A DNA stretch of 64,000 nucleotides, taken from contig JADGKB010000062.1 in assembly GCA_027604185.1 (NCBI GenBank), positions 1 through 64,000 on the forward strand, written 5' to 3'. Of this stretch, positions 129-64,000 are shown one piece after another. How positions within the stretch are numbered: position 1 is the stretch's first letter; each line of letters starts with the position of its first letter. The DNA is from Boothiomyces macroporosus (Eukaryota > Chytridiomycota > Chytridiomycetes > Rhizophydiales > Terramycetaceae). The notes under the pieces are model-generated. The model ran no database searches, had not been told where the DNA came from, and worked only from the letters and a program-made list of their open reading frames with translations. Both the position numbers and the translations under genes were made by a program.

Positions 129-765
129 TTAAACCTCATCATCAAGTATTTGATCTCTTGGAGCAACAAACTGCACTTCTCGTTTGTATTTGTTACTATT
201 TTTGTCATAAACACCTTGTATTTCAAAGGATGTTTCTAGCTGCGTTTTTGTTTTAGGTTTCCGGAAGTCTCGCTTAGAAAAAACCTGAAATTCGTTCGTC
301 ACTATTTCATGAAGTGTGAATCGTGGTTAATGAAGGGTTTACTCTTTCATGTCGATTACTCGGCAAAACAGCCGATAGAATCCTGGGTATACAATTCCGA
401 CATCATTAAATACAAAAAACAACTTTTTTTTACCATCAACAGGGTCTGTTAATATTGTTGGTGCTATGCACAATTCTCCCATTAGATTCACATCTATCCG
501 CTTTGGAAACTTTGCAAAATTGCGGTTGGTGCAGTCTTCAGAATCGTTAATACTTATATGGCAGAGTAAATTATTTTGTTGCAACTCGATTAACAAAGGT
601 TTACTATGTCTACAAAAACCTCTTGGTTCAAATTTACTTGTAATATCAACATAGGTGTTCTAGTTAGTCCTCCTCTTACAGCATTGTCGGTATCAACGGG
701 AAAAGTATGCCTCCACAAGATCTTCCTATTTGTGGTTGTTGTCGAATGGTAATACTTGGCTCCAT
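129..765 (-). CDS. velvet-domain protein, array copy 1
   Basis: Single-domain velvet protein of about 191 aa, the last copy of the tandem array. Exon 1 starts at 765 with the velvet N-terminal signature (TIRQQP then GRSCGG); exon 2 gives MLILQV; exon 3 carries the core NLMGELCI, LTDPVDGKKK, LFFVFNDVGI; exon 4 ends with FQVFSKRDFRKPK and a QGVYDKN motif. Velvet domains have an NF-kappaB-like fold and regulate development and secondary metabolism as dimeric DNA-binding proteins in fungi. Introns are placed at 660-679, 585-604 and 322-342. The third restores the frame only if its acceptor is CG instead of AG, so this copy may use a non-canonical site or be damaged. Copies at 1902 and 5733 are its closest relatives. 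Family call is firm; target genes are unknown. Confidence 0.82.
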
Positions 766-1901
766 GATTCAGTTTTTACAAAACTTTTCCTGACTGGAGA
801 GGAAAGGTTGAGGTACAAATGAGCTTATCTTTATTTTAAAGTAAGAGAGACGCCCATAAGAATGCAGCTAACTTGAATTCACAAATTACCTGTTTATTTA
901 GAGTTTGCAGGTGCATATACTGAATTGGGTACTCTATTTTACCAATGGAACGTCATTTGTATTGTACTCATGACATGTTACAGATTCTACTAAGACTTTG
1001 AATATTAATCCTAATATCGTTTCTTATGCGCCCTTTGATCTATCTCTATGAAGCCAGCCTGATATCCCAGCCATGGTTTAGGATTGATATTAAACCAGCC
1101 CGATTCAGCACAATATACCCTCAATTTACCAGCAGGGCTATATCAGGACAGATAGCATGCAACACTCTCTTACCATATAACAAGTAGAATATTCCCAAAT
1201 ATTTGTGATAACTTTTTTTTTCATATTCAAATCCTACTTATTTTAGAGTTTTACAACGTTCAAACACTATTCTCAGCCAAATGCAAGTGATAACCAACTA
1301 GTATAAATTCAGTGAAATGATGAAACGATGTGCTAAAGATTATTCGACTTTTACAGTTGTTTATTTCTTTCAATTGTATGGCATTTGGAAGCCAAACAAT
1401 GTGATAGTAGAAATGAAACAATAATGGGGAGATACCAGTGAAAGCACTAGCCAGCTACTTTCTCAATTCTGGTTGTTTAAATCCCAAAAATGCATCTAGC
1501 ACTTAAATTCCCGGTTAATCTTGAATGCTCCATTGTAAACAAGCAATAATTGATTTCGCTGACTTTTCAAAAAGTATTAATTTTTCTTGCAAACCTTTTT
1601 AAATAACTATAAAGTAATTTAAATAGGTCTGCAAATACTCTGTACAAAGGCGAAACAGGATCCTGGCAGAATATTGATCAATTAATTATTTTTTCAAATT
1701 CCTTGAAGGAATTAATAAAATCACTTTTTTGTGTAGTATCCTATCGAATATCATTTCAATTTGGTCAAGTAAACGATTGTCGTTAACCAACACCCTGGTA
1801 AAAGCCTCCAAAACTATTTTCAAAACTTTTAAAATTGCGGAATAATTTTAAATTAACGAAATATTAATTTATTTCTTATTCATCAAGTTTGACAATTGGA
1901 T
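766..1901. other. intergenic spacer between velvet copies 1 and 2
   Basis: About 1.1 kb of AT-rich sequence with dense stops in all frames read. No gene recognised. A short inverted repeat (TGGTTTA, 10-bp spacer, TAAACCA) lies near 1074-1097. It probably holds the promoter of copy 1, which reads leftward from 765. Confidence 0.5.
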
Positions 1902-2536
1902 CTATTTTGGGTCTTCGGCAGCTATATCAGGTTCAGTAATGTACTGGAATTCTCTTTTATACTGGTTGCTGTTTTTATCATAAACCCCCTGTCTTGCAAA
2001 CGAATCTTGCAATTGTGTGATTTCTTTCGGTTTGCGAAAGTCTCTTTTTGAATAAATCCGAAATTCATCAGTTTTAACTTGTGTAAAGTTTAACCTACAT
2101 AAGAAACAGTTACTCATCCATATCGATGATTTTGCAAACCAATCCATAATATCCGGGGTGTAAAATTCCGATATCGTTGCATACGAAATACAGTTTTTGT
2201 ATACCATCTTCAGGATCAGTGAGAAATGTAGGTGTGATACAAAGCTCTCCGATAATGTTAATATCAGTCCGTTTTGGAAACTTTGCAAAGTTGCGGTTGG
2301 AACAATCATCATGGTATATTAAGCTGATATGGCAAATTAAATTACAATTCTTTATCTTCCTTTAATTTAAAATTACCTGGTGAGGGGTCATTTCTTCCTT
2401 GAAACGTATTTCCAGTATTAACATAGGGTGACTAATTAATAATGTATTACAGTAACGTTGGAATTAGTGGATACAGTACACCGCCGCAACTTCTACCGAA
2501 TATTGGCTGTTGCCTTATTTTCACTTCAAAAAACAT
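1902..2536 (-). CDS. velvet-domain protein, array copy 2
   Basis: Velvet protein of about 191 aa. Exon 1 from ATG at 2536 reads MFFEVKIRQQP then FGRSCGGVLYPLIPTLL; exon 2 reads HPMLILEI; the core has NFAKFPKRTDINIIGELCI, LTDPEDG and YFVCNDIGILHPGYY; the last exon has FRIYSKRDFRKPK and FARQGVYDKN, the usual C-terminal velvet motif. Introns: 2432-2450 (19 nt), 2356-2376 (21 nt, or 27 nt with a downstream AG) and 2095-2113 (19 nt). Intron positions and phases equal those of the other copies. It belongs to the left subfamily with the GELCI / LTDPxD signature. Stop at 1902-1904. Role inferred only from the family. Confidence 0.87.
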
Positions 2537-5259: not shown

Positions 5260-5707
5260 TTAAATGTGTGGAAGGGTGATTGTTCCTTCTATAAGGATGG
5301 AATTGGAGCTTAGTGGGTCGAGTTTTGGTGGTAGTGTGACTACCAGGCTATTTTGTAAGTTGGGTGAATCATAGAACCACTTACTGGACCTGATTTTCTG
5401 TAATCCAATCGCTTCTGTACACTTGAGCTTGATCTAACACCTGGACACTTGATTCGGGTAACACTGATTTGGTAAAAGTTTGTTTGATCAAGTTTCGTCC
5501 AGAACGGAGCATTGATATTGCACCCACTGGGCCTGTTAATACCATTTGTACAGTATAGTTTCTTTTGCGGGGGGTTGAATGGTTAATTTTGATTCGTTTT
5601 GGAGTGATAGTAGAAAACTTTTTTTTGGAAGTGAAACCAAGGGAGAAACAACTCTTCTTGGAAGCTCTTTTTCTTGAAGGTATTTTGACAAGTATATAAA
5701 TTTATTC
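5260..5707 (-). CDS. unidentified two-exon coding segment
   Basis: An open minus-strand frame runs from about 5707 to 5441 without a stop. A 19-nt GT-AG intron (5422-5440, gtgttagatcaagctcaag) then joins it to a second open exon ending at TAA 5260-5262. The joined protein has a basic, Ser/Lys-rich first part (RKRASKKS, FTSKKKFSTITPKRIKI), a middle reading VLTGPVGAISMLRSGRNLI, and an end reading VVTLPPKLDPLSSNS. The first in-frame ATG is at 5545; the open frame upstream of it has no ATG, so either the start is at 5545 or an upstream exon is missing. I do not recognise the family. It lies about 25 bp downstream of velvet copy 3. It could be a small gene, or a fragment of one. Confidence 0.4.
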
Positions 5708-5732
5708 TGCTATTAGACTACTGGTGTAGTAA

Positions 5733-6337
5733 TTAATTATAATTGAGAAACTCACGACGATACCTCTTTGTGTTCTTGTCATAATAGCCTTCTCTTGCAA
5801 ACGACTCCTGTAGCAGAGAAAACGATCTTGGTTTCCTGAAATCTCTCTTTGAAAATATTCTAAATTCTTCGGTCTTCAGTTCTGTAACCATAAACCTAAA
5901 TTAGAGTTTAGTACTGGTCCATATCTATTATCTTGCACATTAGAGCGTAATAACCAGGGTGCAATATGCTTAAATCATTACACACGAAAAACATCTTGTC
6001 TTTTGAGTCGACAGGGTCTGTCAATACAACTGGTGGTATGCATAGTTCTCCCGTCAAATTAACATCTACTCGTTTTGGAAACTTTGCGTAGTTGCGATTT
6101 GATTCATCTTCTGAGAATATAAGACTCAGGTGACACAACAGCTTATACTGAAACATCTGAATTAGTATTCCAAACCTCTGCTACCGTTAAATCCTGGCTG
6201 AAAACTACTTCCAAAATCAACATTGGGTGACTACATTAACAACATCGATACAGCATGGTTGGTATTAATGGGTATAGCACTCCTCCGCAAGTCCTTCCTA
6301 TCAGTGGTTGCTGCCTAATTACTACTTCAAAATTCAT
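5733..6337 (-). CDS. velvet-domain protein, array copy 3
   Basis: Velvet protein of about 181 aa. ATG at 6337 gives MNFEVVIRQQP, then GRTCGGVLYPLIPTML; exon 2 HPMLILEVVF; core NYAKFPKRVDVNLTGELCI, LTDPVDSKDK, FFVCNDLSILHPGYY; last exon FRIFSKRDFRKPR and FAREGYYDKN. Introns at 6231-6251, 6157-6175 and 5896-5914 (21, 19, 19 nt), at the same positions as in its paralogues. An open frame continues upstream of this ATG to 6577, but all paralogues start at this point and the upstream part has no velvet features. Member of the left subfamily. Confidence 0.87.
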
Positions 6338-7987: not shown

Positions 7988-8591
7988 TCAATTAATTTTA
8001 GTAATATGTCTGTATTCTTTACTGTCTTTATGAAAAATCCCTTGGATCTCAAAAGACCTTTGCAAGTCTGTTTTCTCTCTAGTCTTTCTAAAATATCTCT
8101 TGGAAGAAACTTTGAAGCTGTCAGTTACTTTTACTCCGATTTTGTGACTATAATTAATGCAGCAGTACTTTTGTAAATCTATCACCGAGCATTTGAACTT
8201 GTAAAGTCCAGTTAATCTTACTCCAACATTGTTGAATACAAAAAAATGCTTCCTCCGCTGATCAATGGGGTCGTTCAACAATATCGGTTCAATACAAGTC
8301 TCTCCAATAAGGTTGGAAAATAGTGTCTTGTTACCGTCATCGGATTGTATTATATTTCGGGGCTGGTTGTCAGTAGATAAGAGCGTTAAATGGCAAAGGA
8401 AATCGGCGGGAAACTGAATTTAAAAATTGTTTTACCTGGTCATGAGAATTACTTTCCAGTTCGATTATCAGCATTGGGTATCTACCATTAACTAATTCCT
8501 ACATATGACTGTATATCGTTTTTGAATTGATTCCCTCAACACTCCTCGCATTGGAAGGCTGCTGTCTGATTTTAAAATTAATAATGTCCAT
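7988..8591 (-). CDS. velvet-domain protein, array copy 4
   Basis: Velvet protein of about 179 aa, first member of the right subfamily. ATG at 8591: MDIINFKIRQQP, ARSVEG; exon 2 YPMLIIELES; core LFSNLIGETCI, LLNDPIDQRRK, FFVFNNVGVRLTGLYKFKC; last exon FKVSSKRYFRKTREKTDL and FEIQGIFHKD. Introns at 8482-8502 (21 nt), 8414-8435 (22 nt) and 8148-8168 (21 nt). The third is a multiple of three and has no stop, so it stays open when unspliced; it is called because the same position is an obligatory intron in the other copies. Stop TGA at 7988-7990. Confidence 0.86.
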
Positions 8592-9071: not shown

Positions 9072-9690
9072 TTAAATTATATTCAACTGTCGAAACTCTT
9101 TACAATCCTTATGATATATTCCTTGGATCTCAAATGATTTCTGGAGAAGAGTTTTTTCGTTGCTTTTCCTGAAATATCTTTTCGAGGAAACCTTGAATGG
9201 CTCTGTTCTAAAACTTTGCAATTTTCCACTGTTTAGACTATCCATACCTTTGAAGATCAATTACTAGTCCTTTTAAGTAGTAATATCCCGTCAATCGAAT
9301 ACCAATGTTATTAAAAACAAAAAAATACTTTGGTTGATTGTCTAGTGGATCATTCAACAGCAGCGGGTGAATAATTGTTTCACCTACTAGATTTGAAAAT
9401 GTTTGATCGACACCAGACTGGTTTCTGTATTTGAATATGCTGCAGTTCAGCTCTTCCGAATATAACGACAAGTGACACAATAAACCGCTCGCATCCTATC
9501 TAAGCTCAAAACTACCTACATTAGTAGTATTTACCGATAGATTTTTAGAATTTTGTACCTGAACTATCAACATTGGAGAGCTAGGTTAAGCAACTATTCA
9601 CATGTGACTGTATATTACTCTGGTGTAAATCCCTTCTATACTTCTAGCAATTTGAGGCTGTTGTCTGATTACAAACATATCTTTCTCCAT
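9072..9690 (-). CDS. velvet-domain protein, array copy 5
   Basis: Velvet protein of about 184 aa. ATG at 9690: MEKDMFVIRQQP, ARSIEG; exon 2 SPMLIVQVQNS; core FSNLVGETIIHPLLLNDP, KYFFVFNNIGIRLTGYYYL; last exon FKVSSKRYFRKSNEKTLL and FEIQGIYHKDCKEFR. Introns at 9581-9601 (21 nt), 9496-9519 (24 nt) and 9229-9247 (19 nt). The 24-nt intron is the only GT-AG solution I found that joins exon 2 in frame to the conserved LLCHLSL start of the core. The right subfamily shares the GE(T/N)CI, LLNDPxDN and FNNIGIRxTGYY signatures, unlike the left one. Confidence 0.86.
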
Positions 9691-10260: not shown

Positions 10261-10864
10261 TTACGATATTATATTTATATGTCTAAATTCCTTGCTATCT
10301 TTATGGTAAATTCCTTGGATTTCAAATGATTTCTGCAGCACAGTTTTTTCTTTAGGTTTTCTAAAGTACCTTTTGGAAGAAACTTTGAAGCAGTTGGTTT
10401 CTAAAACAAAAGTAGATCCGCTAAATTTAACCAAAATTACTTTTCTAAATCAACCACAGTACATTGCAGCTTATAATAGCCGGTTATTCTTACCCCAATG
10501 TTGTTGAATACGAAAAAGTACTTTTGGGTGTTATCATTTGGATCGTTTAGCAGAATAGGTGGAATACAAGTTTCTCCCACCAAGTTAGCATACATTTTGC
10601 GTGGAGAGGAAGTGTTGGATACTTTAATTATGTCGGTACATTCATTTTCTGTAGATAATAGAGACAAGTGACACACTAATTTTTCCGCTATCTTCATCAG
10701 ACCACTAATACCTTCGTGTTTGACAAGTTTAGCTCAATAATAAGCAATGGGTATCTATTGTTAACAGTTGTTTACATATGACTATACAACACTTTGTCGT
10801 GAAATCCTTCTATACTTCGTGCTGCGAAAGGCTGTTGTCGAACGACACACGAAAATCCGGGCAT
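10261..10864 (-). CDS. velvet-domain protein, array copy 6
   Basis: Velvet protein of about 180 aa and the clearest example of the shared architecture. ATG at 10864: MPGFSCVVRQQPFAARSIEG; exon 2 YPLLIIELNLS; core MYANLVGETCIPPILLNDP, KYFFVFNNIGVRITGYYKL; last exon FKVSSKRYFRKPKEKTVL and FEIQGIYHKDSKEFR. Introns at 10755-10775 (21 nt, phase 2), 10692-10711 (20 nt, phase 0) and 10421-10440 (20 nt, phase 2). Removing them gives one continuous frame from ATG to TAA that covers the whole velvet domain. Transcription leftward, as all copies. Confidence 0.9.
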
Positions 10865-11543: not shown

Positions 11544-12141
11544 TCAAAACAAAAAATTTTGATGATTGAATCCTTTTGTATCTTTATGGTATACTCCCTG
11601 AACCTCAAAGGACTTTTCAAGGATTGTTTTAGATTTTGGTATGCGAAAATAACGCTTAGAAGCGACTTTAAAAGTACCCGTCGACATTTCAACCATTGAA
11701 TTTCTAAATTTAGTCCTCTTTTTTTACTTTTCTAAATCGAATATCTTGCATTGGAATTTGTAGTAGCCAGTTAATCTGATTCCCAAGTTGTTAAAGACAA
11801 AGAACAGTTTGGGGAGATTGTCGTGTGGATCCACGAGTACATTCGGGGTAATGCAGTTTTCGCCTACCAAGTTGGAGTAAATTGTGGAAATACTTTCCAT
11901 TTCTACCGTGTTTCTCAACTCTCCTTCTTCAGAAATTAAAGCCAAGTGGCAGAGCAGATTCAATGGATTAGATACGCTACATGTATTTGAAATACTACTT
12001 ACATTCTGTATTTCAATTATCAACATCGGATAGCTAGATTAATATATCGTACATGTAGCTTTTGATTGTTGGACTTTCAATTCCGCCAATACTTCGTGCC
12101 ATAGATGGCTGTTGCCTAAAGACATAATTGAATCCAGCCAT
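11544..12141 (-). CDS. velvet-domain protein, array copy 7
   Basis: Velvet protein of about 184 aa. ATG at 12141: MAGFNYVFRQQPSMARSIGG; exon 2 YPMLIIEIQN; core IYSNLVGENCITPNVLVDP, LFFVFNNLGIRLTGYYKFQC; last exon FKVASKRYFRIPKSKTIL and FEVQGVYHKD. Introns at 12034-12052 (19 nt) and 11704-11727 (24 nt). At the position of the usual second intron the frame stays open and no phase-compatible GT-AG pair exists, so this copy has either lost that intron or fixed it as coding sequence (VSSISNTCSVSNPLN). Otherwise typical of the right subfamily. Confidence 0.87.
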
Positions 12142-12836: not shown

Positions 12837-13426
12837 TCAAGGATTCTTTAAACTTTTTCTATACTCTTTACTGTGCTTATGGTATATACCTTGGACTGCA
12901 AACGACTGTTCAAGTAAAGATCTTTCTTTAGGAATTCGAAAATAACGTTTAGAAACCACTTTAAAAGGTTTTGAAAGCTTTTCAGCAAGTTTGAAACTAT
13001 TATTAATATAGTATTACGAATCCATTTCAATAAAGTTACATTTTAGTTTGTACATTCCTGTAGTTCTGATTCCGACATTGTTGAAGACGAAAAAGTATTT
13101 TTTGATATTATCCATAGGGTCGTTTAGTTCAATACAGGGCTCACAGATTTCTCCTACGAGATTTGAATATATTTGATTATCTTTGGCAATGTTGTATCGA
13201 TGTTCTTCGTTTCCCGAAACCAAACTCAAATGGCAGACTATCCTTGGATGACGCTTTGATTAGAGATTATATACTAATTTGATTATAGACTGTAGTTCGA
13301 TTATTAACATGGGATGCCTGACGTTAGGGCAATTTACATGTAGCTTGCCAATAGGTTTTCGTTTATTCCATCTACGCTTCTTGCTATATCAGGTTCCTGC
13401 CGAAAAACAAAATTAATGTCATTCAT
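12837..13426 (-). CDS. velvet-domain protein, array copy 8
   Basis: Velvet protein of about 175 aa, the promoter-proximal end of the array. ATG at 13426: MNDINFVFRQEPDIARSVDG (RQQP changed to RQEP); exon 2 HPMLIIELQS; core IYSNLVGEICEPCIELNDP, KYFFVFNNVGIRTTGMYKLKC; last exon FKVVSKRYFRIPKERSLL and FAVQGIYHKHSKEYR. Introns at 13318-13337 (20 nt), 13254-13274 (21 nt) and 12997-13017 (21 nt). Structure and phases equal copies 4-6. Stop TGA at 12837-12839. Confidence 0.87.
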
Positions 13427-18800: not shown

Positions 18801-18942
18801 AGGGAATACTTCATCCATTCCGTGAACCAGAGGTGATCTGAAGTAGATATCAAATATAGATCCAATATATATAACATGAAATATTACACTGATGTTTAAA
18901 TTTGATTTACCCCAATAGAAGCACTTTGGTCACTGGATGCAT
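15874..18942 (-). CDS. MCD4: GPI ethanolamine phosphate transferase 1 (PIG-N/Mcd4)
   Basis: ER membrane enzyme that adds ethanolamine phosphate to the first mannose of GPI precursors. About 939 aa after removing twelve 20-22-nt introns, close to the usual 920-930. Exon 1 (ATG 18942) gives a signal-anchor helix, then [15 protein letters not shown]. The alkaline-phosphatase-like domain shows [37 protein letters not shown] and HGDGDP, with TPLIAWG. The multi-helix C-terminal domain carries ALDP-free membrane segments ending with [16 protein letters not shown] and [14 protein letters not shown], typical of Mcd4. Introns at 18740-18760 and 18032-18052 are 21 nt, stop-free and recognised only because they interrupt conserved motifs. 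The eighth intron (about 16664-16683) offers TAGTAG acceptors. The metal-site motif reads ADGLRADK rather than GDGLRADK. Divergent from the gene at 19196. Confidence 0.92.
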
Positions 18943-36680: not shown

Positions 36681-36689
36681 TTTATTAAC

Positions 36690-49096: not shown

Positions 49097-49218
49097 CAAA
49101 TACTTTTTATTCTCTTTGCTGTGAAGAATTTCTAAATCCAGCTTTGAATTCAGACACCCCATTGCAGCTTGAAATTCTTGTCGCGTAAAATGACAAACTT
49201 GATTTATTAACTAAATTA

Positions 49219-52200
49219 TTATCTTCCTCTGCCTCGGCCAAATCCATCACGGTAGCCACGTGGATCTCGTTTCTTCCATTCGAAATCTCTTTCTCGGTCA
49301 TGCATTATCTCCCCAGAAGGACCGTACATCCTTTCACGGTCCAGCTGCTCTCTTGGTGGGCCAAATCTATCATTGAAATTATCATGAGCCCGGTAGTTCT
49401 GATGATAATATGGTTTGGGGAAATAAGGTCTTCCTCTTCCACGATTTGAATATTGATGTGGCGGAATAAATCTGTCATTTGGACCTTGAAAGCGTTCTGG
49501 ACCATTTGGAGGGAATCGTTCCCCCGAATTGTGAGAAAACCTGTCATTTGAACTTGGGGGAAATCGGTCAGCAGTGGGAGGGTATCTTTCATTAGAGTTC
49601 TGAAAACGATCACTAGGGCCAGTATATCTATCTCTATTGTCAAAAGAGTTCCACGAATCTTCACGACGATCATGCTGCCTGAAGCCCATTCGTTTGTCGT
49701 TACTATCTATCCGTGTTATTTCATCCTTCATTCCTCTTGGATCAATATCTCTGCTCATACTCTCTGCACGATGATCCCTTTCGCTCCACGAATCTCGTTG
49801 AGATGTAATGGTTGGACTTCTATATTGAACTTTTTCTCGTGGAATTCGATCACTGGCTGGCGGGAAGCTTTCTCGATAGCTTCTGCCATAAGGAACCCGC
49901 TCTGGAGCTTTATCTATTTCTCGATCATCTTTTAACCCATGCATTGGCTCGCTTTCCCTTCTTTCCCTGTATCCTCTATCATTGTCTCTCCAGCCCTTCG
50001 ATTCATATGACGTGTATCTTTCGTATTCAAGAATATCTGAATTGTAACGGGGCGGTTCGCGATGTTCCATTGTGCTCTTTTCATAGGTTGAGTAAGATTT
50101 GGGATGTATATGGTCAGAAACAGGCTTGGGCGAAGACTGTTCAAAAGTGTTACTTTCTTTTGTAGACTCCACATTTTGATCTGGAGTAACAATTTCGCCT
50201 ACTTCACTCGGTTGATATTCAGGGCTGTTGCTAATTTTCACTTCTGAATTTTCGTTTCCAACATCGGTTGTCAAATTTTCGGAAGGCGGCTCTATTTCAG
50301 CAACAGAGGATTCCAAATTCGAAGGTTCTTCACTCGCTGCTTCATTCATAGGGTGAGTTTCTGTGGATGGCATAACAAAAGACTTTTGCTTCATAAAATC
50401 TCGTAATGAAACTCTTTTAGGCTCCACCTTCTCAGCCTCGTCTTCTTGCACAGTATCCTTTGCTTCCCCGTCGTCTTGAATTAAAGACTCTATGTCTTGC
50501 TTCTCCATAGATTTATCTTCCACCATTTCAAAATCTTCGAATGAGCTGTCAACTGTTCGTGACGGTTCTTCTCCAAATAGCAATTCTTCCATTTCGGTGT
50601 TGGATATCTCCAAGTTGCTGTCTTTGGTTTCATCAGCTTCCTCCATAGTAGCAATTTCGCCTTGCTCGCTCTCTGATCCAGGTGTTTCTTCTATCTCGTT
50701 TTCGAATCTTTCCAGTATAATTTCGTCCTGATTTAAAAGGTAGTTCCACATGATCAAGTCCTTATTATTACTTTCCGCTGCAACTTGGACTCCCCTTTGC
50801 CGTTTTATTTCAAATTCAGATAGTGTGTCATAAAACTCACTTGTTGGGATATCAGGATCTGCAAATTAATCAAATTATACCTCCAAATTTAGATCTCTTG
50901 AAATTTTCTGCAAAAGAAATTGTATCATTTACATAACAGGTAGTATCTTCTTCACAGATGCATGAATAATGACAATACCCATCGCCTGGTTGTAGTATAA
51001 TTTCCTCTCCTTGTTTAATAGCTTTTGTTGTGAAAATGCCTAACCTTGGTCTATCGGAAAATGCAACTGGTGGATCTACAAAATCTGAGTTTTGCAATGA
51101 TTGAGATAGTTTTTCACTATTAATCAACTTGCGATCTCCAATTTCAGAATAGTCGATAGCCCATACAAGTTTCAAAGTAGCATTACATCTTTCCAAATCA
51201 TTCTCATTCGCACCGCAACATGATCGAACGAATCTGCCATCAAACCCACCAAACTCTCTGGAATCTATCCACAATTGCGATTCCTGAGACTGTTCAACTC
51301 CTGGAACACAAAACACAAAAGGTGGAGCCAGCAAGGCAGGACTGGATCGATTTTCTTTACATATGGGTATCAAAGATTGTACTTGATCTTTCTTGTCCAA
51401 ATCAACCTTTCCACTGATAACTCCCATAATTGAAGATACAAAGCAGCCAGAGTCCATATTTTCAGTTGCAAACAACCCCATCTTTTTAGCTCCTGAGCAA
51501 TATTTTTGGTCTACTGAATCATAGATAGCTTTAAAATTCAATGAAAATTCGTCTTCCAACATTGCAACTGCGTCTGGCAAACTTTCAACTGGGTTATTTG
51601 GCTTTTCTGATAGATTTGGAATAATATCTAAAACTTGAAACAATGGAAACGTATCAGTCTTGGTTTGAATCGACTCTAATGCATCCTTTGCAAATGGAGT
51701 AATCAAGCATCGAGAACAGCTAGCAAATATTTGTAAATTGGAAGCGTATTCTTCTTCATAAATGGTTGAAAACCTAGTCTGCAACTCCTTTGAAAAGTCT
51801 TTTTTACGAATTATAAATGGATCTGGAGAAGACTGTCTCGACTGGATCTGGGGGACACTATGCAGCCGAGGTCTTCCTCTCGGTTTCTGTCTTTCAAACT
51901 CCATTGCAATATCATTCCCGATAGAATCTTTAAATTTTTTTCGTGGTGGAGACTGCATCATATCCTTGTTCTTTTTCTTTCTTCCGTCGATAGCTTTTAA
52001 TCCGATTTCAGGCGATTCTTTCCTTTTCCTCGGAGATGGCTTTTCAAATCTCTCCATTCGCTTCTTCTTTTCTTCAACTTTCTTGCCTTTGCCAGAATCC
52101 TTCATCCTCTTTCCTTGAAGAATAATTGCTCGCTAAGTCAATCAAGATTTACTTCTTTATCCAGCGTACGAGGCTCGCACATTTCACAGAAATACAGTTC

Positions 52201-52356
52201 TGGAACTATTATTAGTATCAAAGAACCTGTTTCTTCCGTTATTTCTACGCAAACGGCATGCTGCCATACTAGACATTTTTCACATTGAATTGTAAATCCA
52301 TCATCATGTACGAACCCACATATACATCTGATTTCTCCTTCTTCGTCTGCTGACAT
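49219..52356 (-). CDS. Set3-type PHD-finger/SET-domain protein with Arg/Gly-rich tail
   Basis: About 1,024 aa from four exons. ATG 52356: MSADEEGEIRCICGF opens a PHD finger (CICG...CEKCLVWQHAVC...YFCEMCEPR); a 21-nt stop-free intron (52206-52226) and a 20-nt intron follow. After a basic linker (GRPRL) the SET region has GLFATENMDSG, FVRSCCGANENDLERCNATL, RLGIFTTKAIKQGEEI and post-SET-like CICEEDTTCYV. The FVRSCCxAN form of the usual RSCxPN, in the Set3/Set4/MLL5 group, is often linked to lost catalytic activity, so it may be a chromatin reader in a histone deacetylase complex. A 22-nt intron leads into a long acidic then Arg/Asp/Gly-rich tail ending GRGRGR. The tail could bind RNA. Confidence 0.82.
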
Positions 52357-53306: not shown

Positions 53307-56300
53307 TTATTCGAAAGAAAAAACCCATTCCAATAGTTGGTTGTCAGCTGGGGAGGGCTGAGGCTGTTCCTTTACTTCTGGGAACAGTTTGGCAATGAAT
53401 GGGTTTGAAGAATTCTTGATTTTGTCTTTATCAGAACCACCAACGGTTTCAAGAGCAAATATCGCTGCAAGGACTGAAACATTGCTATTGCTCAACGTAG
53501 GGAAGGTTTTCTATGATTAATGACTAATTACTGGAATCACGGATTCCTTGTGTATAATTTGGTGTAAGAGTGTCAAGACGGATTTCCATAAATTCTCTGC
53601 TTGTTCTTTTACAGCTTGATCTTTGGTCAACGCGAAAAAGGCCAACTTGGAGTATATTGAATTAATTGAATTCTTTCCGATTTGAACAACCACTTTTGGA
53701 ATATTTCTCACTAAGACTTCTTGTTTGATTATTTCCTTTGTTTCTCTTTTTTCAACGATTTCAGTCTCATTGGTGATATCTGTTTGTGATTGATTCATAA
53801 TTTCAACAGTTACTTTTCGATTACAAAACATAACCATTACATGATTATTCTCTGGTTTCAGAGTATCATTTAGATTAAATAAATTGTTCTTTTCAGAATC
53901 TATTGTTTGGTGGCTGTCTTGAGTTTCTACTGTTTCCCTGGAATTTGGCTTACTGGTACTGGATTCAATCTTTTCTGATTCTGCATGATCAGTTGTATCA
54001 ATAGGAATCCTAAATTTTTCTATTGAAATATCCCGAGCGAAATCAATAATCTCCAAAGGCAAGTTGTTCTGAGGATCAATGATTGGGAGATAAAGCCAAG
54101 TCATAAAGTAGAACTGCGTATCTGGTGAGATTTTGATCCCATTTTGCACTTCCTCTATTTTATCCTTGTAGCATCGTTGCAACCTCAAGAATCTGGTTAT
54201 TGACGAGAGATATCTTTCATTATACCCTATCGGCTTGCAGTCAAAAATATCTGTCAAAGACTTTCGATACATTCGAATATCATTAGTAGTGATTGAGTGT
54301 GAGCTGAAGCCCTTGTATTTTTCAGTAATGCTGTTTTCGTCCACAGCAAGCAAATCCACTGAATCAAAAATAGGGTCATCTTTTTCCATAGATTTGAAAT
54401 TATCCAGTTCAATTTGAATGCTAATTGGCACATCCTTATAACCGAGGTTCTCAGAGGTACTTGCAATTAGCTTGCATTGACTAAATTTGTAAACTTGATA
54501 GTAGATATCAAATTCACTGGTGAGCCTGTTTTCTACTTGCAAAGTTAGTTGCATTAAACTGGCGTGATATTTCTTTTCAATACTGCCTCCAACAACTGAC
54601 GTTTGCATAAATGATTGAAGTAAACCTTTGACGAAATTTGTAACGATAACGTACTTTGTGGAACCTAGAGAGTATGCTGTTCTGGCTTTGAAGCTGTCCA
54701 AGGCGATTGAATATTTTAAAACTGTGATCAAGTCCATGTGAGCCTTGTATTTGCTATCGAAAAGCAAATACCGAAGGTTTTCAGTAAGTGATTCAAGTTG
54801 ATTTGAAGAGTGATCACCCACAATCAATTTACATCTTAACAGAAGGAAATTTTTTAGCAAATGGTCAATGTTTGACTCCCAATAACTTGTAGACGCTACT
54901 TTTGCGAAATGGCTTTTTACGAAAATCATTTGTAAATTATCCATATGCTCATAGTGATGAAGTGCCCCTTTTTGACGGTGGAAATAATTATCTGCCGCAG
55001 CCCTGATCTCTGAACATTTGACGAGTGTTAATAATGCCATTGGATGATCATTCAACTTCTCTTGTACTTTTTGAAGGCATTTCAATGTATGTTTGAGGGA
55101 CTGATCATCTTGTCCAGAGTAGATTAGTATTTTAGCCATGGTGGTCAAAACTCCTGCATAGATCAAATTTGAATTGAATGAAGAATACTCTTCCTCTGCA
55201 GTTTTTGCAAGGGAGTACGCGAACAAGTATTTGCCCTCTGCAAAAAGCGACCTAATGATAACTTCTAAATTGGATATCAAAAAAGTCTTTCCAAGCTGAG
55301 AAGTAAGTGCATTGAAAATATTCTGTCTATGACGATCGCCTGATTTCAAAGTGCTTATTAACTTCCTGATTGATAAAGCCCTGATTGTTATTTAATATTT
55401 ACCATTTCAGGGAAGACTTGAACCGTTTTTGAATGAAAAATGTTTGAAGTAGGATATCAAATAACACGATTAACTGGTAGTAGTTAGTTACAATGATATC
55501 CAATTCTTTGTTATATTTTAAATCAATCTCATTTGTGTTTCCCGTATCCAGCTTTCCTTTAATAACAGTTTGAATTGTTTGGACATGTTTGAAAATAATT
55601 CCACGAATGCCCGTAATAATATCAAGCTGCCATCCATCATAGTCTAATTTTGGCAAATCAATTCGATTTGCTTCTGATTTGTAAGCTTCAAACTCGTCGC
55701 AAGGAGTAGTATTGTTTGAAATCTCTGCCAGTTCAAAAACTTTTAATACCAGCCGCATTCGCGCAATATCATAATCGATAATATATCTAGGGGTATTATG
55801 AAGTTTAGTTTTTTCTGAAAGTGGTGAAATTAACAACTGTTTCAAAACCAAAAAATGATTGCCTGTTAGTGGATAAGAGTTGTTTTCGAATTGAAACTCC
55901 ATCCCGCCATCGTCGATTTTCTTCTTTAAAGGATTTGCCTTTGACGCCAAATAGAGATGATTTATCCCCTCATTGATTAATCCTATTTGAACCAGTGCTT
56001 CCGATTTAATTATTAGCGTGGTACTGCACATTGGAATGGAGCACAAAACATTCTTCGAAACATAGTCTGCCACAGCCAACATTGGTAACGAAGCAGCTGC
56101 CATATTGTTTTGTATCAGCACATTGGACATGTAGTGAATATTTTCAACAAACTCTACAGGGTTGAGTTCATGCTTTAACATGAATAAACCATTGCTTGAA
56201 TATAAATTATCTACTTGAAAATCTACGTATTCCATGTAGTTTGTAGGATTTGGAATTGTGTAGTACAGGCATGCTATATTCAAATGCGCAGCTATCCATA

Positions 56301-59300
56301 TGCATTCCAACTGCTTATCAAAGTTTTTGCAGAAAGTGAATCTGCCGATCCTAACCAGCGCGTTCGAAGCTTGAATTGCAAGTAAGATACCACCTAACTT
56401 GTCAACAATGACCCTTGCATTTTCTTCAGAAAACCTAGATTTTGGGTTGATTTCAAGATAGTTTAGCAAACTTTTGAGTACCTTTGGTTTTCCAGTGAGA
56501 TGATCTAAACCTCTGGACCAAAAAGTAGCAGATCCAGCATGGTCACCAATTTCATGGAGGAAATTTCCAAATTCGAACGATGCCAATGCAGCCAAGGTGT
56601 AATTTGTCTCTTTGATTGATTTTGAAATCACGCACTCAAATGCGGTATATATTTCGGTATTTACAGCCGCATTTTCATGAAGTATGTGTCCTTGTAAATG
56701 GCATTCCAGCTGATACGCAGCAACTTTATATCTACAATAATAGAGTGCTTCTTCCGCCGGTCTATCTTCTCTGTAGTCTACTACTGGCTTTGAAATTAGT
56801 TCGTTGTTTTTTATGGCTTCTTGGCAATATTTTAGGAGTGGATTCAATAGAGAGTCCATTGCAGGACTAAAGTAATTCTGAACTTTTTTGGTAAAATTCA
56901 ACAATCGGTGATATTTGCCTGCAGTGTGTATAACTTCGATAACAAACAGGAGGAATTCGCTACAAAATGCCAGGTCAAATATTTGATGCTGATTGAACTG
57001 TTGTCTATCTGTCCAACTGCCGATAAACTGATCATGGGTAATTTCAAAGTAAGTTTGGACTGGAACCACTCCTTTTTTAGAAGAAGGGTAGGTATGTGAC
57101 TGCAAGAAAGTATTACCTTTCGGAACTTTTGAAATTTGAACTGCTTTTAAAGTATCAAGTATTACATTTCCTACCGTGATTAATCCTCTCCATAAAGTCT
57201 GTTTCCAAAATGGCAAGTCAAGCCTGCCGTTGTAGAACATAAATCTTAACGACACCCACAACGATTTCGAATATTTTATGATTTTCAATGGGTCGAACGA
57301 TCTACTAGCTATAACAATTGATTGAATAAAAGATTGTATCATATCCACTGCCTGAGTGTGCTGGCTTCCATTTGGATCAATTGAGCTTTCTTTCTTGTTT
57401 AATTGTTTTATCATAAAGGACGCACTAGACCTGAACTCTAACCATTCTACAAGCGAGTTTTCCTTGGAATCATTTAAATTGAATTGAAATAGTTTGGAAT
57501 CCTTTCTGTATTGAATAAAAAGAGCCTTTGCTCTAAAATATAGCAACGATGACCTCCAAGGGTTTTCATAATCGAGAATCAAGCGCAATCGTCGAGCATA
57601 ACATCTTCTATGCCACAAATAATAAAGTTTGGTATCTAGTACTTTAATCGCTTGGTCGACCCTATCCCTTTCCGTGTTTGACATTCCATTAAAGTATGCA
57701 TGTCTGTGGGTTGCTCTCTTTCGTTTGGCCAGTTGAATGGAGGTAAGCTCATTATCTGCGGCATCTTCATGATTGATGGCCGGAGGGCTGGCAGAGTTTG
57801 CTCTAGAAAGGTCTCTTTTTGGTGAGCCATTGGAGGAATTCTTTGGGCTGGCTGAATTGGCTCGAGATATATTCCCTCTTGGAGGAGTGCTTGGTGTGCT
57901 ATGCGGACGATCTCTTGAAGAGTGTCGTGATCCACTAGACCCACTGGTTAAAGATGGGGTAGTAGAATTTGGTCTAGAACCACCGATCTTTCTTTCTGGC
58001 GAAGGCTCGACAACCACTCTTCTTGTGTCATCCTTCTTGTCCACATCTCTTCCTCGCACATGGTCCCTGAAATTAAAGTATTTCTACCCGTGGTGTGCTT
58101 TTCCTTTAATAGAATCCATCAAGGCAGCTTTGTCCAAGGAAAATAGTTGCCTTCTCCTTCTTTTAATTATAATTTCTTTTTTGTGGTGAGAAACATCCTC
58201 AAGTAGCTCGTCCATTCTTGATATAATCTGACACCTGATTGGTTAGAAACAGTCACCTTCTATCCACCCAGTCCTCAAGCTCCAGACTTAATCGTATAGC
58301 AGTTTCTATCGAGTCTTTCTCTATACACCAAGAGACTATTCTCGTAACAATTTCCACATATCTTGGATTTTTGCGGAATTTGGTTAATTCTTGCATTGTA
58401 GTTTCTGGCCCAGCAGTAATAAATAGCGTAAAAATGTCTTTCAATGTTGTAGTGCTGTCTAATGTTTTTCTGGAGACATTCTTTTTTACATTTGGGTCGT
58501 TCATCAAAGATGGAGGTATTGCTTTATGTTTGACCATGAGTACCTCCATCAATTCGTAAAACATATCAAATTGCTTTCTATGAAACGATACTCCAAATTT
58601 ACTTGGTTTGGTAACTGCTAACCGTCCAAGGTAGCCAAATTCTGCAAGATAATTCGAAGAAGACCGTTTCGCCTTCCCTTTGTGAGGTTTGTATATGTAT
58701 CCAAGCAGACTCGTCTCCATCATGTTAGAGTTGATAATCTTAATATCCGCTGAATATGTGGAAATATTTATGAGTGAGTTTGTGTCATATGCTATTTGGG
58801 CTGCCAATGTGACATTTCCTAATTCTATCAATCTAGTAACCAAATGGAAGGTGACCGGAACCAAGAATTCTCTCAGCCCCTTTGATTTATCATTTTCAAA
58901 TGCACCTGATTGTTTTAGTAGTGTATCGTGACACTTTACTAGAATGTTCAGAATAAATGGGGTGTAAACGTCGGTTTTTAGGAATGGTAGTATTTCTTGG
59001 TACAGCTTCACTACACACAGGATTTCTAGCGTTGGTTGACCGGTATACTTTGCGCATTCACTAGCAATCAAAAAGTCCCTGCAAAGCTCGAATCGAAAAT
59101 ATTGCGAAAGTAGAACGCTGTTGGACTGGCCACTCTGGTTAAATTCAGCTTTTCGTAATTCAATATAATAAAAGAAACATTGAATAAATCCCCTAATAAT
59201 AGCTTGGTTTGTTGTACCGAGGGTTTTGTAGTTCATCTCAAAAATTGCTGTATTGTTGGACCCATCAAATTTATCATCCACAAAGTTACGCAGAGACTCC

Positions 59301-62300
59301 ACTGTGCATTTGCTTTTTATAAATTGGCCTTCTAAATTTTTCATTGCTTGATTAACGATTTCCCTGTCATCCATTCTTGAAGCAATGGACAAAACATAGG
59401 TCCAACATAAATTGATGCTCAAAGGTAAAGCGGCTACAATCGGGATGGAATTTGACTTTACTTTTGCGCCTGCTGTTGAATCTGCATATATATCTGGGTA
59501 TAGTGAAAAGGTTACATGGTATTTGCAATCCTTTTGCAATCCATACAGTGTCGCAGTCGAGTTTTGCAAAAGTGGACGCATAATACCTGCACCATTTACA
59601 TTACTTGCTTTGATGTTCTTGTCAGAGAAATTTCCAAAAACTTGATACCACTTATTTTCCCCGTCAATATTGGGAATAGCTACAGATATAGAGTTGGAAG
59701 TACGTCGAATGAAAGTTGGGGAGTTTGAATCAGCAATTTTTAATTGCTCGAATAAAACATTTTCCTGTCTTCTTCCCTCCTTCAGATAGTTCACCGCTTT
59801 CCGGAGAAGACGGCTTCGATCAGCAAATGGGATTCCCTTTCCATGCAGAATTGTTGATAACAGAAAAATTGAGCGTTTCACTGGATCGTCTCCGCAATAT
59901 TTTAGTAAGATAGCTTCATCCGGAGATTCGTAAGGAATGGCAAGATCCAGCTTCATATGCCGAAGTTTTAGCGTCTCCTCCTGCTTTTTTCTTAATTTAC
60001 AAAGATTTTCTTCATAGTCATGCTCTATTACGCATCGATAATAGAAACTAAGCACATCAACTTCCAGGCAAGCAAAGTCACGAATTACCTGGTCGCCTTC
60101 ACTTTCTGGATATATTTTGTGATAAGATGGGTCCGCAGTAATACAATCCTTTATATCCACAGCGCCTCCAATATTTATTTCTCTAGCCCTATTGATGTTT
60201 CCTAGACACTCTTTCAGTACGGTCATGGCTCTGTCGAATTCTCCCATGCACTCGTAGATTAAGGCAAGTTTTTGGGAAATCCCTACTCCTAGCACAATAA
60301 GATGGTGGTCTGTAAAGTAATGGAGTTTGCAAAAAATGGAGTGAATAAATCCAAGCACCAACATTATTGCATCGTCACTTTTTAGATGGTAGATTTTTGG
60401 TGAATCTAGTGTTGATTTGATATCTCTAAGAAATGGCTCCACGAAATTCCAAAGAAGCAGTGCTGAATCGATTATCAGGTATGGGGATTTAATCAGCAAT
60501 TCGTGGCTGTCTAAGCATTCCAAGATGGAATTACAGAATATTGCGATTGTATGTTGAACTTGCTCAGCCAATTCAAACCTTGATGCTCTAAAGTCACTAG
60601 GAGTAGCTCTTCCAGCCAAGTTTGATTGGAAAAACACTTTTCGATCTATTTGAAATGAGAGCAGAAACTTTGAAGCAGATAAACGCAGATTTGTTTCCAA
60701 AAAGAGCGGATGCTTGTGCTTCAAAGGGAAAGTATGAATAACTTCTACAATTTTTTCTAGCCTGGACCAACTTCGATAGGTGAATAGAAATTGCGATAAT
60801 TTAACAATATCGTAGATGTCAAATTTGCCAGGTTCGGTTCTGGGCACTTCAGTTTGATCACCTTCAAAGTGCTGTCTTTTTTCTTTAATTTCTGCTTTCG
60901 TAGAGAATGATCCACTAAGCAAGTTGAACGCTTTTTCTAATAACAAAGATACTATATATTCTTTCAATGTATTTTCGTCGACTTTTTCTGGAATTTTCAC
61001 TCTCTTTTCATGAGTCAACAGACCATCCAATATTCCAATAATTGCAGAGAACTGTTGGGCTGGTGTATTGAACAAGTTTAGCGCTGCGTTGATTTCTTCC
61101 CAGCAACCTTTCTTGATTTTCACATCTTCTGAATCCTCTTTGATTATTTTCTTTTTTTCTGATTTCTTTGCAGTTTCCCCATCTATTTTAACTTCTTCTT
61201 TTGTCCCATATTCACTTGTATCAAGATGAGTGCTCTCATCTAATGAAATATTATATTGAGAAATCAAACTGCGATATATTTCCAAGTGACGGCTGTCTTG
61301 GATTTGAAAGTTTACTGGAAATTTGAAAATGCTGTAAGAAAAAAGAAAGAAATCGGGCTTCCATCCTGAGATCGATTGCAATTGTTTTTTCCAATTGAAA
61401 TTTTCTACAAATGACATTGCGGTGATTGAAGAAGAATTGCTGATCAGCATTTTTACTGCCTCTTGAATGCTTGGCTTGGGACCAATCTTTGATTTGATAA
61501 TCGCCGATGCCAGGAATGTATCAATCAATTTGGTTACATCTGATAAACCCTCTTGGCTGGAAGTAGAAAACAAAGTTGATTTGGCCCTTAAAAATTCAAT
61601 TCCAACTTGATCTTCCGAGTCAATGAATATCCATCTGTACGATTTTAAAAGCATATAGATGTAAATGCTGGAAATTTCGGAAGTTTCATAGAGCGTTTGG
61701 GATTCAAGGAAATTTAGCACCCAGATTATGGACTCCTTTGCCTGATGTTAGTCAAACTCACCATTTTTGCTTTTCCAATACTGGTTAGAAATTTGGCGAT
61801 TTGGAAAATGTGATATACGGTCATTAAAATTGTCCATTTCATTGTGCTATCTTCGTGAGCGAAGCGATAGGTGTTTTCTTTTAATTTAGCAAGAACCTGC
61901 TCCACGTCGTCAACAGATTTCGAATGCCGAACGCTAAAATCAATATTGACTATAGCCAAAAACTCTACCACTATCTCACTGAAATATAGTTTTGCCTTGA
62001 TTTCGTGAATATCGATTGACTTTTCTGCTGTACCATCGGCTATAGGTGCAATCGCTGGCATCGCCGAGATGTAATTATCAATACAAGTGAAGCAGCTTTC
62101 AAAGGCTAAATTGTGGCATCCTTTGATTTCTAGCAGCTGATCCCCAAAGTCCAAACACTTCTGCAGAAAGACTTTTTTGTCCAAGTACTTTTTGTATTTT
62201 TCCAGACAGCCTAGAAACTGAAAGGTAATGATTCTATACTGGCTGGCATTTGTTCTCGATAAAACAGTTGTATGAAGTGATTTTAGTAGATATCGAGCTT

Positions 62301-62421
62301 CATTCTCGAACATGGTCAACAGCCCATCGGATGAAATGTACGAGTCGCTCAAGTTATCCCATCCCAAGTTATTCGGGTTGAGCTTGTCGTATTTCAACTT
62401 TGCGTTGTTGGTTTTTTTCAT
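53307..62421 (-). CDS. CFAP54: CFAP54-like axonemal central-apparatus protein
   Basis: About 3,002 aa in six exons with introns of 20, 22, 21, 22 and 21 nt (near 61741-61760, 58225-58246, 58071-58091, 55380-55401, 53497-53517); human CFAP54 has 3,096 residues. CFAP54 is part of the C1d projection of the central pair and is needed for flagellar beating. The protein is a TPR-like helical solenoid without catalytic motifs. The strongest similarity to CFAP54 is the segment GDHAGSATFWSRGLDHL and the following ASLPMLAVADYVSKNVL ... KSEALVQIGLINEGINHLYL. A Ser/Pro-rich disordered insert lies around residues 1,290-1,370. Assignment from remembered family pattern; another giant axonemal TPR protein (CFAP46) is the main alternative. 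It implies a motile flagellum. Confidence 0.75.
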
Positions 62422-62598
62422 GGCAAAAGAACTGGCGCGTTCAAACCGTGTTTACTGTATTTTCAAAGACAAAAGTCTACATTTCGATCACTGTGTTATG
62501 CTAGGGTGGCTCCATTCGTTGTTCTGGTGTCAACTGGCATGGACACTGCCCCTTTGATTTGTGTAACAGCATGACACTTGAAAAAAGTTTCACAGCAA

Positions 62599-64000
62599 AT
62601 GAGAAAGAAAGCCTGCGACTCTTGCAGGCAAAAGAAAAGGAAGTGTGATGGGCAAACTCCATGCTCATATTGTGTTAAAACAGCCCATCTGAATCCCACC
62701 AAACTTCCAAACTGTACTTATAATAAGCTTCAATCAACCAGTAACACTAAGCCTGCAACACCAACCACACCTCCATATGAAGATACAAATTATAATTACA
62801 AGTTGGTAGATTCGAAATCCCCGATTTCTAATATACTGCCGCTAAGTATGGAACTGGATTTGATTCGGCTGGGTGTATTGCTCAACCCTTTACTAGTGAC
62901 TCATTTGGACGATTTGCTTTGCATTTATCGGGACTTTAAAATATCAAATGTACTGCATCTTTCTATGTGTGGTAATTTATAGCTAACGCAAGGATTTGGA
63001 ATCATGTATTCAAATCAGACACTAGTAGCCCCTCAAATTACCAAAGAAACAATATCAAGAAGCTATATTACTGCTGCAAAAGCAATTTTGGATGATATAT
63101 CACCTTCGATTACTTTGGGGGTGGATTACTGTTTAGATTTAGTTAGGAGTTACATCATCATTGGAGTGTGCCAATTCGGGTTTCATGAAGTCGATGCAGC
63201 ATTAGAGTGCATGTTTACACTGCAGGAGCTCATTCCAAAGTTGGGGATATTTGAAGGGATTTTTGACGAGCAGAATAGCATGCTAGAAAGTGACAGACTA
63301 AGGAGACAATTATTGTGGCAAAGCTGCTTGTTAATAGATACGCTGGGTTCAAATGCCAGTGGACAGGACTTTTTCCTGGATGATAACCTGTTTGATTGGC
63401 GAATTCAGCCATCAATATCCTATTTTGTTGGAATATCCAAGGAAAACTTACGACCAATGAATCACCTGAACAGAATAAGACACAGTCTATGGACGGATGA
63501 AAAGGCTATCCACTTTCTTAACGGGATGTGCGACATTGGATTTGTATCAGTTGAGAATGACTTGCACTATCTCTCTCAATCAAGATTTGCAATCATCAAA
63601 AGTTTTAGAAGGGTTTTGCTATTCGCAAGAGCCTATGACAAGGGACTGGCGGAGCATATAGATTACCATTCCCTTCATTCAGAGTTACTAACTTGGATGA
63701 AAGATTTGCCCGCAGCCCTGAAGCCTGTTTCAAAACTGGAAATATATGCAACAACTATTCCTAGCCTGGAATCACCTAACGATGTCTGGGCACGCCACCC
63801 TACTGCTGTTCAAGATTATCTATTATTTCTTTCAGGCTTGGTCCATTTACACTTACCAGGAGTACAGGCGAATTCACAAATCCCATATTCCCTTGATTTG
63901 AATAATGCCACTCAGTTTAATTCCAAAGAGATTGTGCTAACGTGTTTCAATGTGCTTATATATATCATTGAAACAATGTACGCGTTTTCCGACAACAAAT
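62599..64000 (+). CDS. Zn2Cys6 transcription factor (partial at window end)
   Basis: Begins at ATG 62599 (MRKKACDSCRQKKRKCDGQ). The zinc cluster reads C-x2-C-x6-C-x5-C-x2-C with a long loop before the sixth Cys (LPNC), followed by a Ser/Thr/Pro linker. A 21-nt intron (about 62973-62993) restores the frame into a helical region typical of the fungal-specific transcription-factor domain (RRQLLWQSCLLIDTLGSNAS, QSRFAIIKSFRRVLLFARAY, LLTWMKDLPAAL). The frame stays open to base 64000, about 460 codons, so the gene continues beyond the window. Divergent from CFAP54 with 177 bp between. Zn2Cys6 regulators occur only in fungi and close relatives. Target pathway not inferable. Confidence 0.88.

Follow-up and report, generated by a model that had tools for sequence, protein, structure and literature searches.

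Nucleomorphs, mikrocytids and certain ciliates possess uniform introns close to 20 nucleotides (nt) in length, and all of them are far from the organisms that serve as standard models of the spliceosome. The introns of chlorarachniophyte nucleomorphs span 18 to 21 bp and those of mikrocytids 16 or 17 nt, with 224 of them in M. mackini (PMC10245619); in the 15-nt introns of Stentor coeruleus the branch adenosine (branch A) stands at position 10 (PMC9505925); the introns of P. bursaria have a median of 24 nt and a range of 15-100 nt (PMC12862383); and very short uniform introns are also reported in PMC5014332. On the fungal side, published figures are some 37 introns of 22-76 nt for Encephalitozoon cuniculi (PMC3629993), a mean intron of 63 bp for Cryptococcus neoformans (PMC8476143), 37,153 and 45,777 annotated introns for Batrachochytrium species (PMC5364385), and gaps between branch motif and AG of 2 nt in Yarrowia and 3 nt in C. 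guilliermondii (PMC2483917). Here we analyse a stretch of 64,000 nt (the window; contig positions 1-64000, G+C content about 37%) of a chytrid genome of 15.2 Mb in 216 contigs, assigned to Boothiomyces macroporosus (Chytridiomycota, Rhizophydiales, Terramycetaceae) or a very close relative, in which nearly all predicted introns are about 20 nt long and so not far from the smallest introns on record. Very probably they are spliceosomal introns of the ordinary major class (U2-type), held at a nearly fixed minimal geometry.

Introns were placed by homology with a spliced aligner that charges the same for every intron between 12 and 150 nt, and splicing is throughout deduced from the DNA. Anchored on homologues or tandem paralogues are 36 introns (six in chitin synthase, 11 in PIG-N, four in Vps8 and 15 in velvet genes), every one of them 19-24 nt long. 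The chitin synthase gene (21221..23812, plus strand) appears to contain eight tiny introns. With the Terramyces protein as guide six are called, of 22, 24, 19, 21 (GC-AG), 20 and 19 nt: 21380..21401, which lies in a weakly conserved region and was not recovered with Globomyces; 21738..21761; 22060..22078 (gtaattggtattgatatag, between KK and INSHKWFF); 22221..22241, a GC-AG intron without an in-frame stop; 22431..22450; and 22949..22967 (gtacttttaactaatctag, between IGG and MFTMF). The 24-nt, the 20-nt and both 19-nt introns are supported by the Terramyces and Globomyces alignments alike, and the two 19-nt examples are exactly those that a first-pass annotation of this DNA had singled out. Two further N-terminal introns of 20 nt each (21262..21281 and 21309..21328), across which no usable homologue extends, were placed by frame and motif. 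Over 83% of its length the spliced protein (815 amino acids, aa) matches the public Boothiomyces macroporosus protein P0001 at 100% identity; it is 78% identical to its counterpart in Terramyces sp. JEL0728 and 58-59% identical to Globomyces proteins. When four decoy dinucleotide pairs replaced the true ends in the alignment with Globomyces, 82-148 alignment points were lost. The public P0001, whose N-terminus is shorter than that of the present model, translates the GC-AG intron as KFKLTEG.

The PIG-N gene (GPI ethanolamine phosphate transferase 1; 15874..18818, minus strand) yields 11 introns under the Terramyces guide, and the Globomyces protein, at 64% identity, recovers the same eleven: 18740..18760 (21 nt, no in-frame stop), 18537..18556 (20 nt), 18347..18368 (22 nt), 18032..18052 (21 nt, no in-frame stop), 17836..17855 (20 nt), 17502..17521 (20 nt), 16924..16943 (20 nt), 16659..16678 (20 nt), 16523..16543 (21 nt), 16391..16410 (20 nt) and 16259..16280 (22 nt). 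Nine of these junctions are free of gaps against both proteins, and the four decoy pairs cost 376-462 points against Globomyces. Identity to the proteins of Boothiomyces sp. JEL0838 amounts to 98% for PIG-N and 97% for Vps8. In Vps8 (minus strand), homologue alignment places introns at 36092..36112 (21 nt), 35049..35068 (20 nt, miscalled as 29 nt by a gene finder), 32352..32370 (19 nt) and 32260..32278 (19 nt, with a tandem donor by which 22 nt would be possible too); the JEL0838 model gives 21, 20, 19 and 19 or 22 nt, plus one call of 12 nt, and a 37% identical reference gives 20, 42 and 19 nt. The 12-nt "intron" appears to be present in the public JEL0838 model P0241, where it deletes VIFK beside a likely zinc-binding motif, and is probably an annotation artefact.

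The remaining anchored introns belong to a tandem array of nine velvet-like genes (132-13426, minus strand), eight of which have intron positions in common; Pfam Velvet matched in both copies scanned, and the third copy (3752-4437) is degraded. An intron at residue 28-29 is common to the eight copies, at 660..679 (copy 1, 20 nt), 2432..2450 (copy 2, 19 nt), 6231..6251 (copy 4, 21 nt), 8482..8502 (copy 5, 21 nt), 9581..9601 (copy 6, 21 nt), 10755..10775 (copy 7, 21 nt), 12034..12052 (copy 8, 19 nt) and 13318..13337 (copy 9, 20 nt). A second one at residue 121-122 recurs in seven of them, at 2095..2113 (copy 2, 19 nt), 5896..5914 (copy 4, 19 nt), 8148..8168 (copy 5, 21 nt), 9229..9247 (copy 6, 19 nt), 10421..10440 (copy 7, 20 nt), 11704..11727 (copy 8, 24 nt) and 12997..13017 (copy 9, 21 nt), and was not made out in copy 1. 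Copies 2 and 9 served as references to which the others were aligned, and in a plain tblastn search the remaining copies break at the same places.

The same length class emerges without homology. A gene finder blind to intron length and motif (a 4th-order model allowing introns of 12-120 nt, used in place of a first finder that drew on codon usage only and was dropped as too weak, at about 0.1 nat per codon) was applied to 264 kb, comprising the window and twenty 10-kb pieces of other contigs (21 pieces in all). It called 106 GT-AG introns, with 65 in the 16-23 nt bins; each of five decoy dinucleotide pairs returned 89-95 introns, of which 8-16 fell in those bins. The 65 short introns, chosen by length and GT-AG ends only, carry a TTAAT/CTAAC branch-like motif near their 3′ end that had played no part in picking them. 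A model-free count of GTA...YTRAY...AG spacings from 14 to 400 nt in the 264 kb has its sole peak at 19-22 nt, with 93, 102, 64 and 30 occurrences at 19, 20, 21 and 22 nt over a background of about 16.6 per length. This peak is present in the window by itself (17, 18, 16 and 10 versus 3.9 per length) and in the other 200 kb by themselves (76, 84, 48 and 20 versus 12.8). No peak comparable to that of GTA/AG arose in the 264 kb for any of ten further donor triplets or for the alternative acceptors AC, TG and GG; small peaks for AGT, TAG and GG resemble echoes of the true sites, shifted by 1-2 bases. Genome-wide, the pattern GTAAN{5,30}CTAACNTAG has 241 matches, and among the 100 matches listed 90 are 18-22 nt long (one of 18, 39 of 19, 38 of 20, nine of 21 and three of 22 nt, the other ten at 24-43 nt). 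The clustering at 19-22 nt noted in the first-pass annotation holds beyond the window.

How many such introns the window contains depends on the finder. The figure of over 70 given in the first-pass annotation is plausible: a gene model based on a position weight matrix (PWM) predicts 59, including 53 of 18-24 nt, yet it overlooks all eight chitin synthase introns, two in the PIG-N gene and several among the velvet copies. Its six calls outside that range are of 15, 17, 28, 28, 29 and 31 nt; the 29-nt call, in Vps8, is an artefact for which homology gives a 20-nt intron, and the 15-nt call is doubtful, sitting in a kinase open reading frame that reads through whole. An earlier finder pass over the sample had returned 239 introns of at most 32 nt. 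A tuned finder limited to introns of at most 30 nt placed 317 introns in coding sequence totalling 181 kb, a density of 1.75 per kb, which extrapolates to roughly 14,000-18,000 introns in the 15.2 Mb. Three would-be lines of evidence were set aside. The whole-codon length of every gene after intron removal, which had been offered in support, is an outcome of how introns were placed and tests nothing. The depletion of intron-like motifs of 19-22 nt in sense exons (5 sense versus 20 antisense) is partly circular, because the finder itself removes such motifs. Finally, in-frame stops occur in 66 of 73 introns of 21 nt from the tuned finder, a proportion that we do not read as selection because stopless 21-nt introns escape the finder; three of these were found by homology alone.

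The introns share one geometry. We tabulated, again without a gene model, the number of nucleotides before branch A against the number after it, branch A being placed by its motif. Four cells form an island, (13,5) with 74, (13,6) with 54, (14,5) with 42 and (14,6) with 45 occurrences versus about 6 expected per cell, flanked by (15,5) with 15, (15,6) with 17 and (14,4) with 15 (versus 4.3). Between 12 and 13 nt there is a step, (12,5) and (12,6) holding 5 and 4. With a looser TNA motif an excess appears at 12 nt when 4, 6 or 7 nt follow (58, 73 and 70 versus about 36), which we read, unproven as this is, as mainly the same introns with A off register. Donors are mostly GTA(A/T), with a weak preference at +5, and acceptors (n=239) are TAG in 155, CAG in 59, AAG in 23 and GAG in 2. 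Hence 13-14 nt ahead of branch A, beginning with GTA, the A within YTRAY and 5-6 nt ending in AG together make up 19-22 nt. The GT, branch motif and AG proposed for each intron in the first-pass annotation are in place, at fixed distances; not every intron conforms, one verified intron being GC-AG. By the measure of PMC2483917, the gap from branch motif to AG is 2-3 nt, inside the yeast range. The unusually short part of the intron is its 5′ half. With GT-AG and rarely GC-AG ends (the one GC-AG intron being that of chitin synthase), a YTRAY branch motif followed by 5-6 nt and complementary to the GUAGUA of U2, a length near 20 nt in nearly all cases and a fixed, motif-inferred branch position, the introns show features both of U2-type introns and of a tiny-intron system.

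The genome also encodes a major spliceosome, represented by U1, U2, U6, the Prp8 PROCN domain, SF1, U2AF65, Cwc25 and Isy1. A U1 candidate with the 5′ end AUACUUACCUG scores 68.8 bits (E 3.3e-16), slightly below the Rfam cut-off (69.5 bits). With the permissive E of 10 applied in this search, 9 of 14 control genomes matched too, none above the cut-off. There are two U2 copies with GUAGUA and a U6 with ACAGAGA, so that the pairing sites of all three RNAs are canonical. Prp8 is present with its PROCN domain (775 bits), SF1 aligns to a solved Splicing factor 1 from a KRKTRWG segment into the zinc-knuckle region, and in U2AF65 both RRMs and the C-terminal domain have matches in solved chains of that protein; in the genome search the best U2AF65 stretch reached 230.7 bits, below the family cut-off of 310.3, and 2 of 14 controls matched. 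Cwc25 begins with MGGGDLNLKKSWHP as in its solved homologue and keeps the MGGG glycine plug. RED (PF07808) gave no match in the genome search, nor did its control, and we claim no absence. The models of these machinery genes come from a finder that allows short introns only, and therefore the tiny introns within them are no test of length. The Cwc25 region occurs twice, as 3111 bases each with identical gene calls on contigs C49 and C100, perhaps as a recent duplication or as unmerged haplotypes.

These features can be brought together in a model in which the substrate, and not the spliceosome, would be the unusual part. U1 and SF1/U2, bound side by side, would recognise the intron as a single unit, by intron definition. 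Such an intron would have no room for a polypyrimidine tract, and U2AF65, still encoded, would act via SF1, U2AF35 or the AG itself; the AG immediately downstream of the branch would be the one used. The edge at 13 nt could conceivably arise where two RNA duplexes abut, one of about 6 nt with the 5′ splice site and one of about 7 nt with the branch site, their lengths adding up to the minimum. No change in the spliceosome would be required.

Several observations weigh against our interpretation and have to be considered together. Splicing itself is, as noted, read from DNA. Guided by the Globomyces protein, the aligner calls chitin synthase introns of 74, 39, 24, 19, 20 and 19 nt, where the first two fall in the N-terminal part, which is poorly conserved; the run as a whole disallowed the GC donor. 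Other calls outside the class are those of 12 and 42 nt in Vps8, of 17, 18, 18, 28, 12 and 39 nt at velvet positions that are not common to all copies, and, in the third velvet copy, which is degraded, of 81, 38 and 69 nt; in our judgement the out-of-class calls in all three sets are artefacts or twin units. Some anchors are not fully independent: that for Vps8 is a public gene model from within the genus, and those for the velvet genes are copies 2 and 9 as we modelled them ourselves, so that 4 of the 15 velvet introns were checked against themselves only. The reversed-pattern control of the GTAAN{5,30} scan gave 189 matches versus 241, and as the reversed pattern differs in word content we rely instead on the length profile among the matches listed. 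U5 was not found in the genome search, in which its control gave no match either, so that here too we claim no absence. Lastly, the Isy1 model aligns to the best solved chains only from residue 37, and to another from residue 32, its 5′ exon model being doubtful.

The last point bears on the alternative that deserves most attention, namely that an altered spliceosome permits these same introns, along the lines suggested for Stentor, in which changes have affected branching factors close to the active site. A single geometry common to the introns would fit such a change, and Stentor reportedly is without the Cwc25 plug and has a non-conserved Isy1 N-terminus (PMC9505925); in our genome the first 31-36 residues of the Isy1 model remain unaligned to the best solved chains. 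The Pfam Isy1 profile, however, matches from its position 4, and the model start is doubtful because it requires a 1-nt exon between two intron units. In the Isy1 gene (L038 1434-2313), the 5′ end can be read with one 22-nt intron or with two 20-nt introns flanking that 1-nt exon. Moreover, conservation extends to U1, U2, U6, SF1, U2AF65 and the Prp8 domain, and Cwc25 retains MGGGDLNLKKSW and with it the glycine plug whose absence is a mark of the Stentor type. The spliceosome with altered spacing rules that the first-pass annotation had deduced is not supported where tested: among the genes it pointed to, U2, U6, SF1, U2AF65 and the PROCN domain of Prp8 look canonical or conserved, with U2AF65 below its family cut-off, and we consider alteration unlikely.

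Less probable still is a second class of ordinary fungal introns, of 50-100 nt, missed beside the tiny ones. Our sample covers 264 kb of 15.2 Mb, and introns in 5′ untranslated regions or with other signals would escape it; back-to-back units of 39-43 nt do exist. Yet calls of 24 nt or more by the length-blind finder number 40 for GT-AG, below the 74-82 of the decoys, the GTA...YTRAY...AG spectrum of the 264 kb has no second peak between 23 and 400 nt, and a genome-wide GTAAN{36,66} scan, covering lengths of 49-79 nt, gave 73 matches over 31 lengths, or 2.4 per length, with no class (control 205); several of these matches themselves end in a tiny intron. An iterated model proposed 73 introns of 40 nt or more, which often fuse two tiny introns or lie at doubtful gene starts; they were left out of the counts after inspection of the printed list and were not settled singly.

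The back-to-back units, intron-like and 0-3 nt apart, lie in the window at 43220-43260 and 9496-9534 (minus strand) and elsewhere at L014 6293-6335, L017 3718-3757 and L021 358-396. Each unit has approximately the right geometry, that at 9496-9534 by a loose motif only, and the pairs, which total 39-43 nt, may be removed in one step or in two. Their excess is small, with 4 strict pairs versus about 1 expected by chance.

Assembly or sequencing errors, or marks of pseudogenes, are a scarcely tenable source of the segments. It is true that only assembled sequence was examined and that the velvet copy at 3752-4437 is degraded, but errors would not place GTA, YTRAY and AG at fixed spacing, nor would they peak at 19-22 nt alone in the window as well as in the 20 pieces sampled elsewhere, and both the Terramyces and the Globomyces PIG-N proteins run gap-free over nine junctions and recover all eleven introns. 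Removal at the DNA level or by another non-spliceosomal route, in the manner of ciliate internal eliminated sequences, would suit short, uniform, frame-breaking segments, but the GTA...YTRAY...AG signals fit pairing with U1 and U2, which are encoded together with U6, and, DNA elimination of that type being to our knowledge not known in fungi, we give this route next to no weight. Major-class introns of minimal geometry remain the interpretation that we favour.

Beyond the anchored genes, similar introns had been claimed for malonyl-CoA decarboxylase and several other genes of the window. The PIG-N, Vps8 and velvet cases proved to be anchored, as described above, and malonyl-CoA decarboxylase (36690..38283, minus strand) is supported by the alignment of its spliced protein, over residues 105-486, to a solved malonyl-CoA decarboxylase, its introns at 37859-37878, 37554-37573 and 37290-37309 (20 nt each) and 36851-36869 (19 nt) being calls of the gene finder. 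The following genes and introns are predictions of the finder only: 19238..21116 (plus strand), with introns at 19364-19383, 19551-19570 and 19646-19665 (20 nt each) and 19763-19781 (19 nt); 23815..28490 (minus), with 26692-26710 (19 nt), 26251-26271 (21 nt) and 25348-25366 (19 nt); a RabGAP-TBC gene at 44911..46238 (plus), with 45124-45143 (20 nt), 45763-45781 (19 nt) and 46069-46088 (20 nt); 47098..49162 (minus), with 49032-49053 (22 nt), 48955-48975 (21 nt) and 48241-48261 (21 nt); 49219..52356 (minus), with 52206-52226 (21 nt), 52133-52152 (20 nt) and 50859-50880 (22 nt); and a gene of 3002 aa at 53307..62421 (minus), with 61742-61761 (20 nt), 58235-58256 (22 nt), 58067-58087 (21 nt), 55381-55402 (22 nt) and 53511-53531 (21 nt). 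The last of these had been named CFAP54, a name that we could not confirm, the one piece tested having matched 0 Pfam families. Within 32098-38973, Vps8, malonyl-CoA decarboxylase and a Methyltransf_16 gene are adjacent to each other, and the Pfam domains of all three occur in one public Terramyces protein, P0242 (2001 aa), which suggests a conserved gene order together with a fused gene model.

Several of the tiny introns are already included in the public gene models P0001, P0121 and P0241, and thus the underlying data have been released, though the class as such may not have been described; no fungus with a genome-wide class of introns of about 20 nt is described in the literature that we searched, which was partly accessible and left subscription papers mostly outside. 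On the practical side, stopless 21-nt introns are easily taken for protein, as has happened in at least one public model (P0001). More broadly, the chytrid case moves the question of minimal introns into the fungi, nearer to the yeasts for which spliceosome structures have been solved, and the minimal intron size and its limit become testable by transferring introns among fungi. We propose, as a conjecture for which we see an even balance of chances, that this fungus independently reached a whole-genome system of tiny introns of fixed geometry (13-14 nt, A and 5-6 nt) with its major spliceosome essentially unmodified, that the 13-nt edge is the true minimum spacing between 5′ splice site and branch in a standard spliceosome, with the two duplexes abutting, and that Stentor, at 9 nt, went below it only with altered branching factors.

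The resemblance to nucleomorphs and heterotrich ciliates that the first-pass annotation drew for a uniform class of very short introns in a fungus is borne out in some respects of each system. Ordinary fungal introns are alike in their GT-AG ends, YTRAY-like branch motif and short gap from branch to AG, but are about three times longer. Encephalitozoon cuniculi, the nearest precedent on the fungal side that we met, has introns of widely differing lengths and no genome-wide uniform class. Paramecium likewise has thousands of very short GT-AG introns, with a wider and longer range. The mikrocytids are alike in having a uniform very short class, but are parasites with a reduced spliceosome, and the 224 introns of M. 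mackini compare with the 14,000-18,000 that we extrapolate for Boothiomyces. Chlorarachniophyte nucleomorphs, with their narrow class, come closest in length to the Boothiomyces introns; they are, however, remnant endosymbiont nuclei with about 300 intron-bearing genes, whereas the introns described here would belong to the main nucleus of a chytrid with a genome of 15.2 Mb. Stentor is alike in being free-living and in having tiny introns of uniform length, canonical pairing sites in U1 and U2 and 5 nt after branch A, and differs in having 9 nt before branch A versus 13-14 in Boothiomyces, a 5′ half that is 4 nt shorter, and in the Cwc25 glycine plug, which is reportedly lost in Stentor (PMC9505925) and kept in Boothiomyces.

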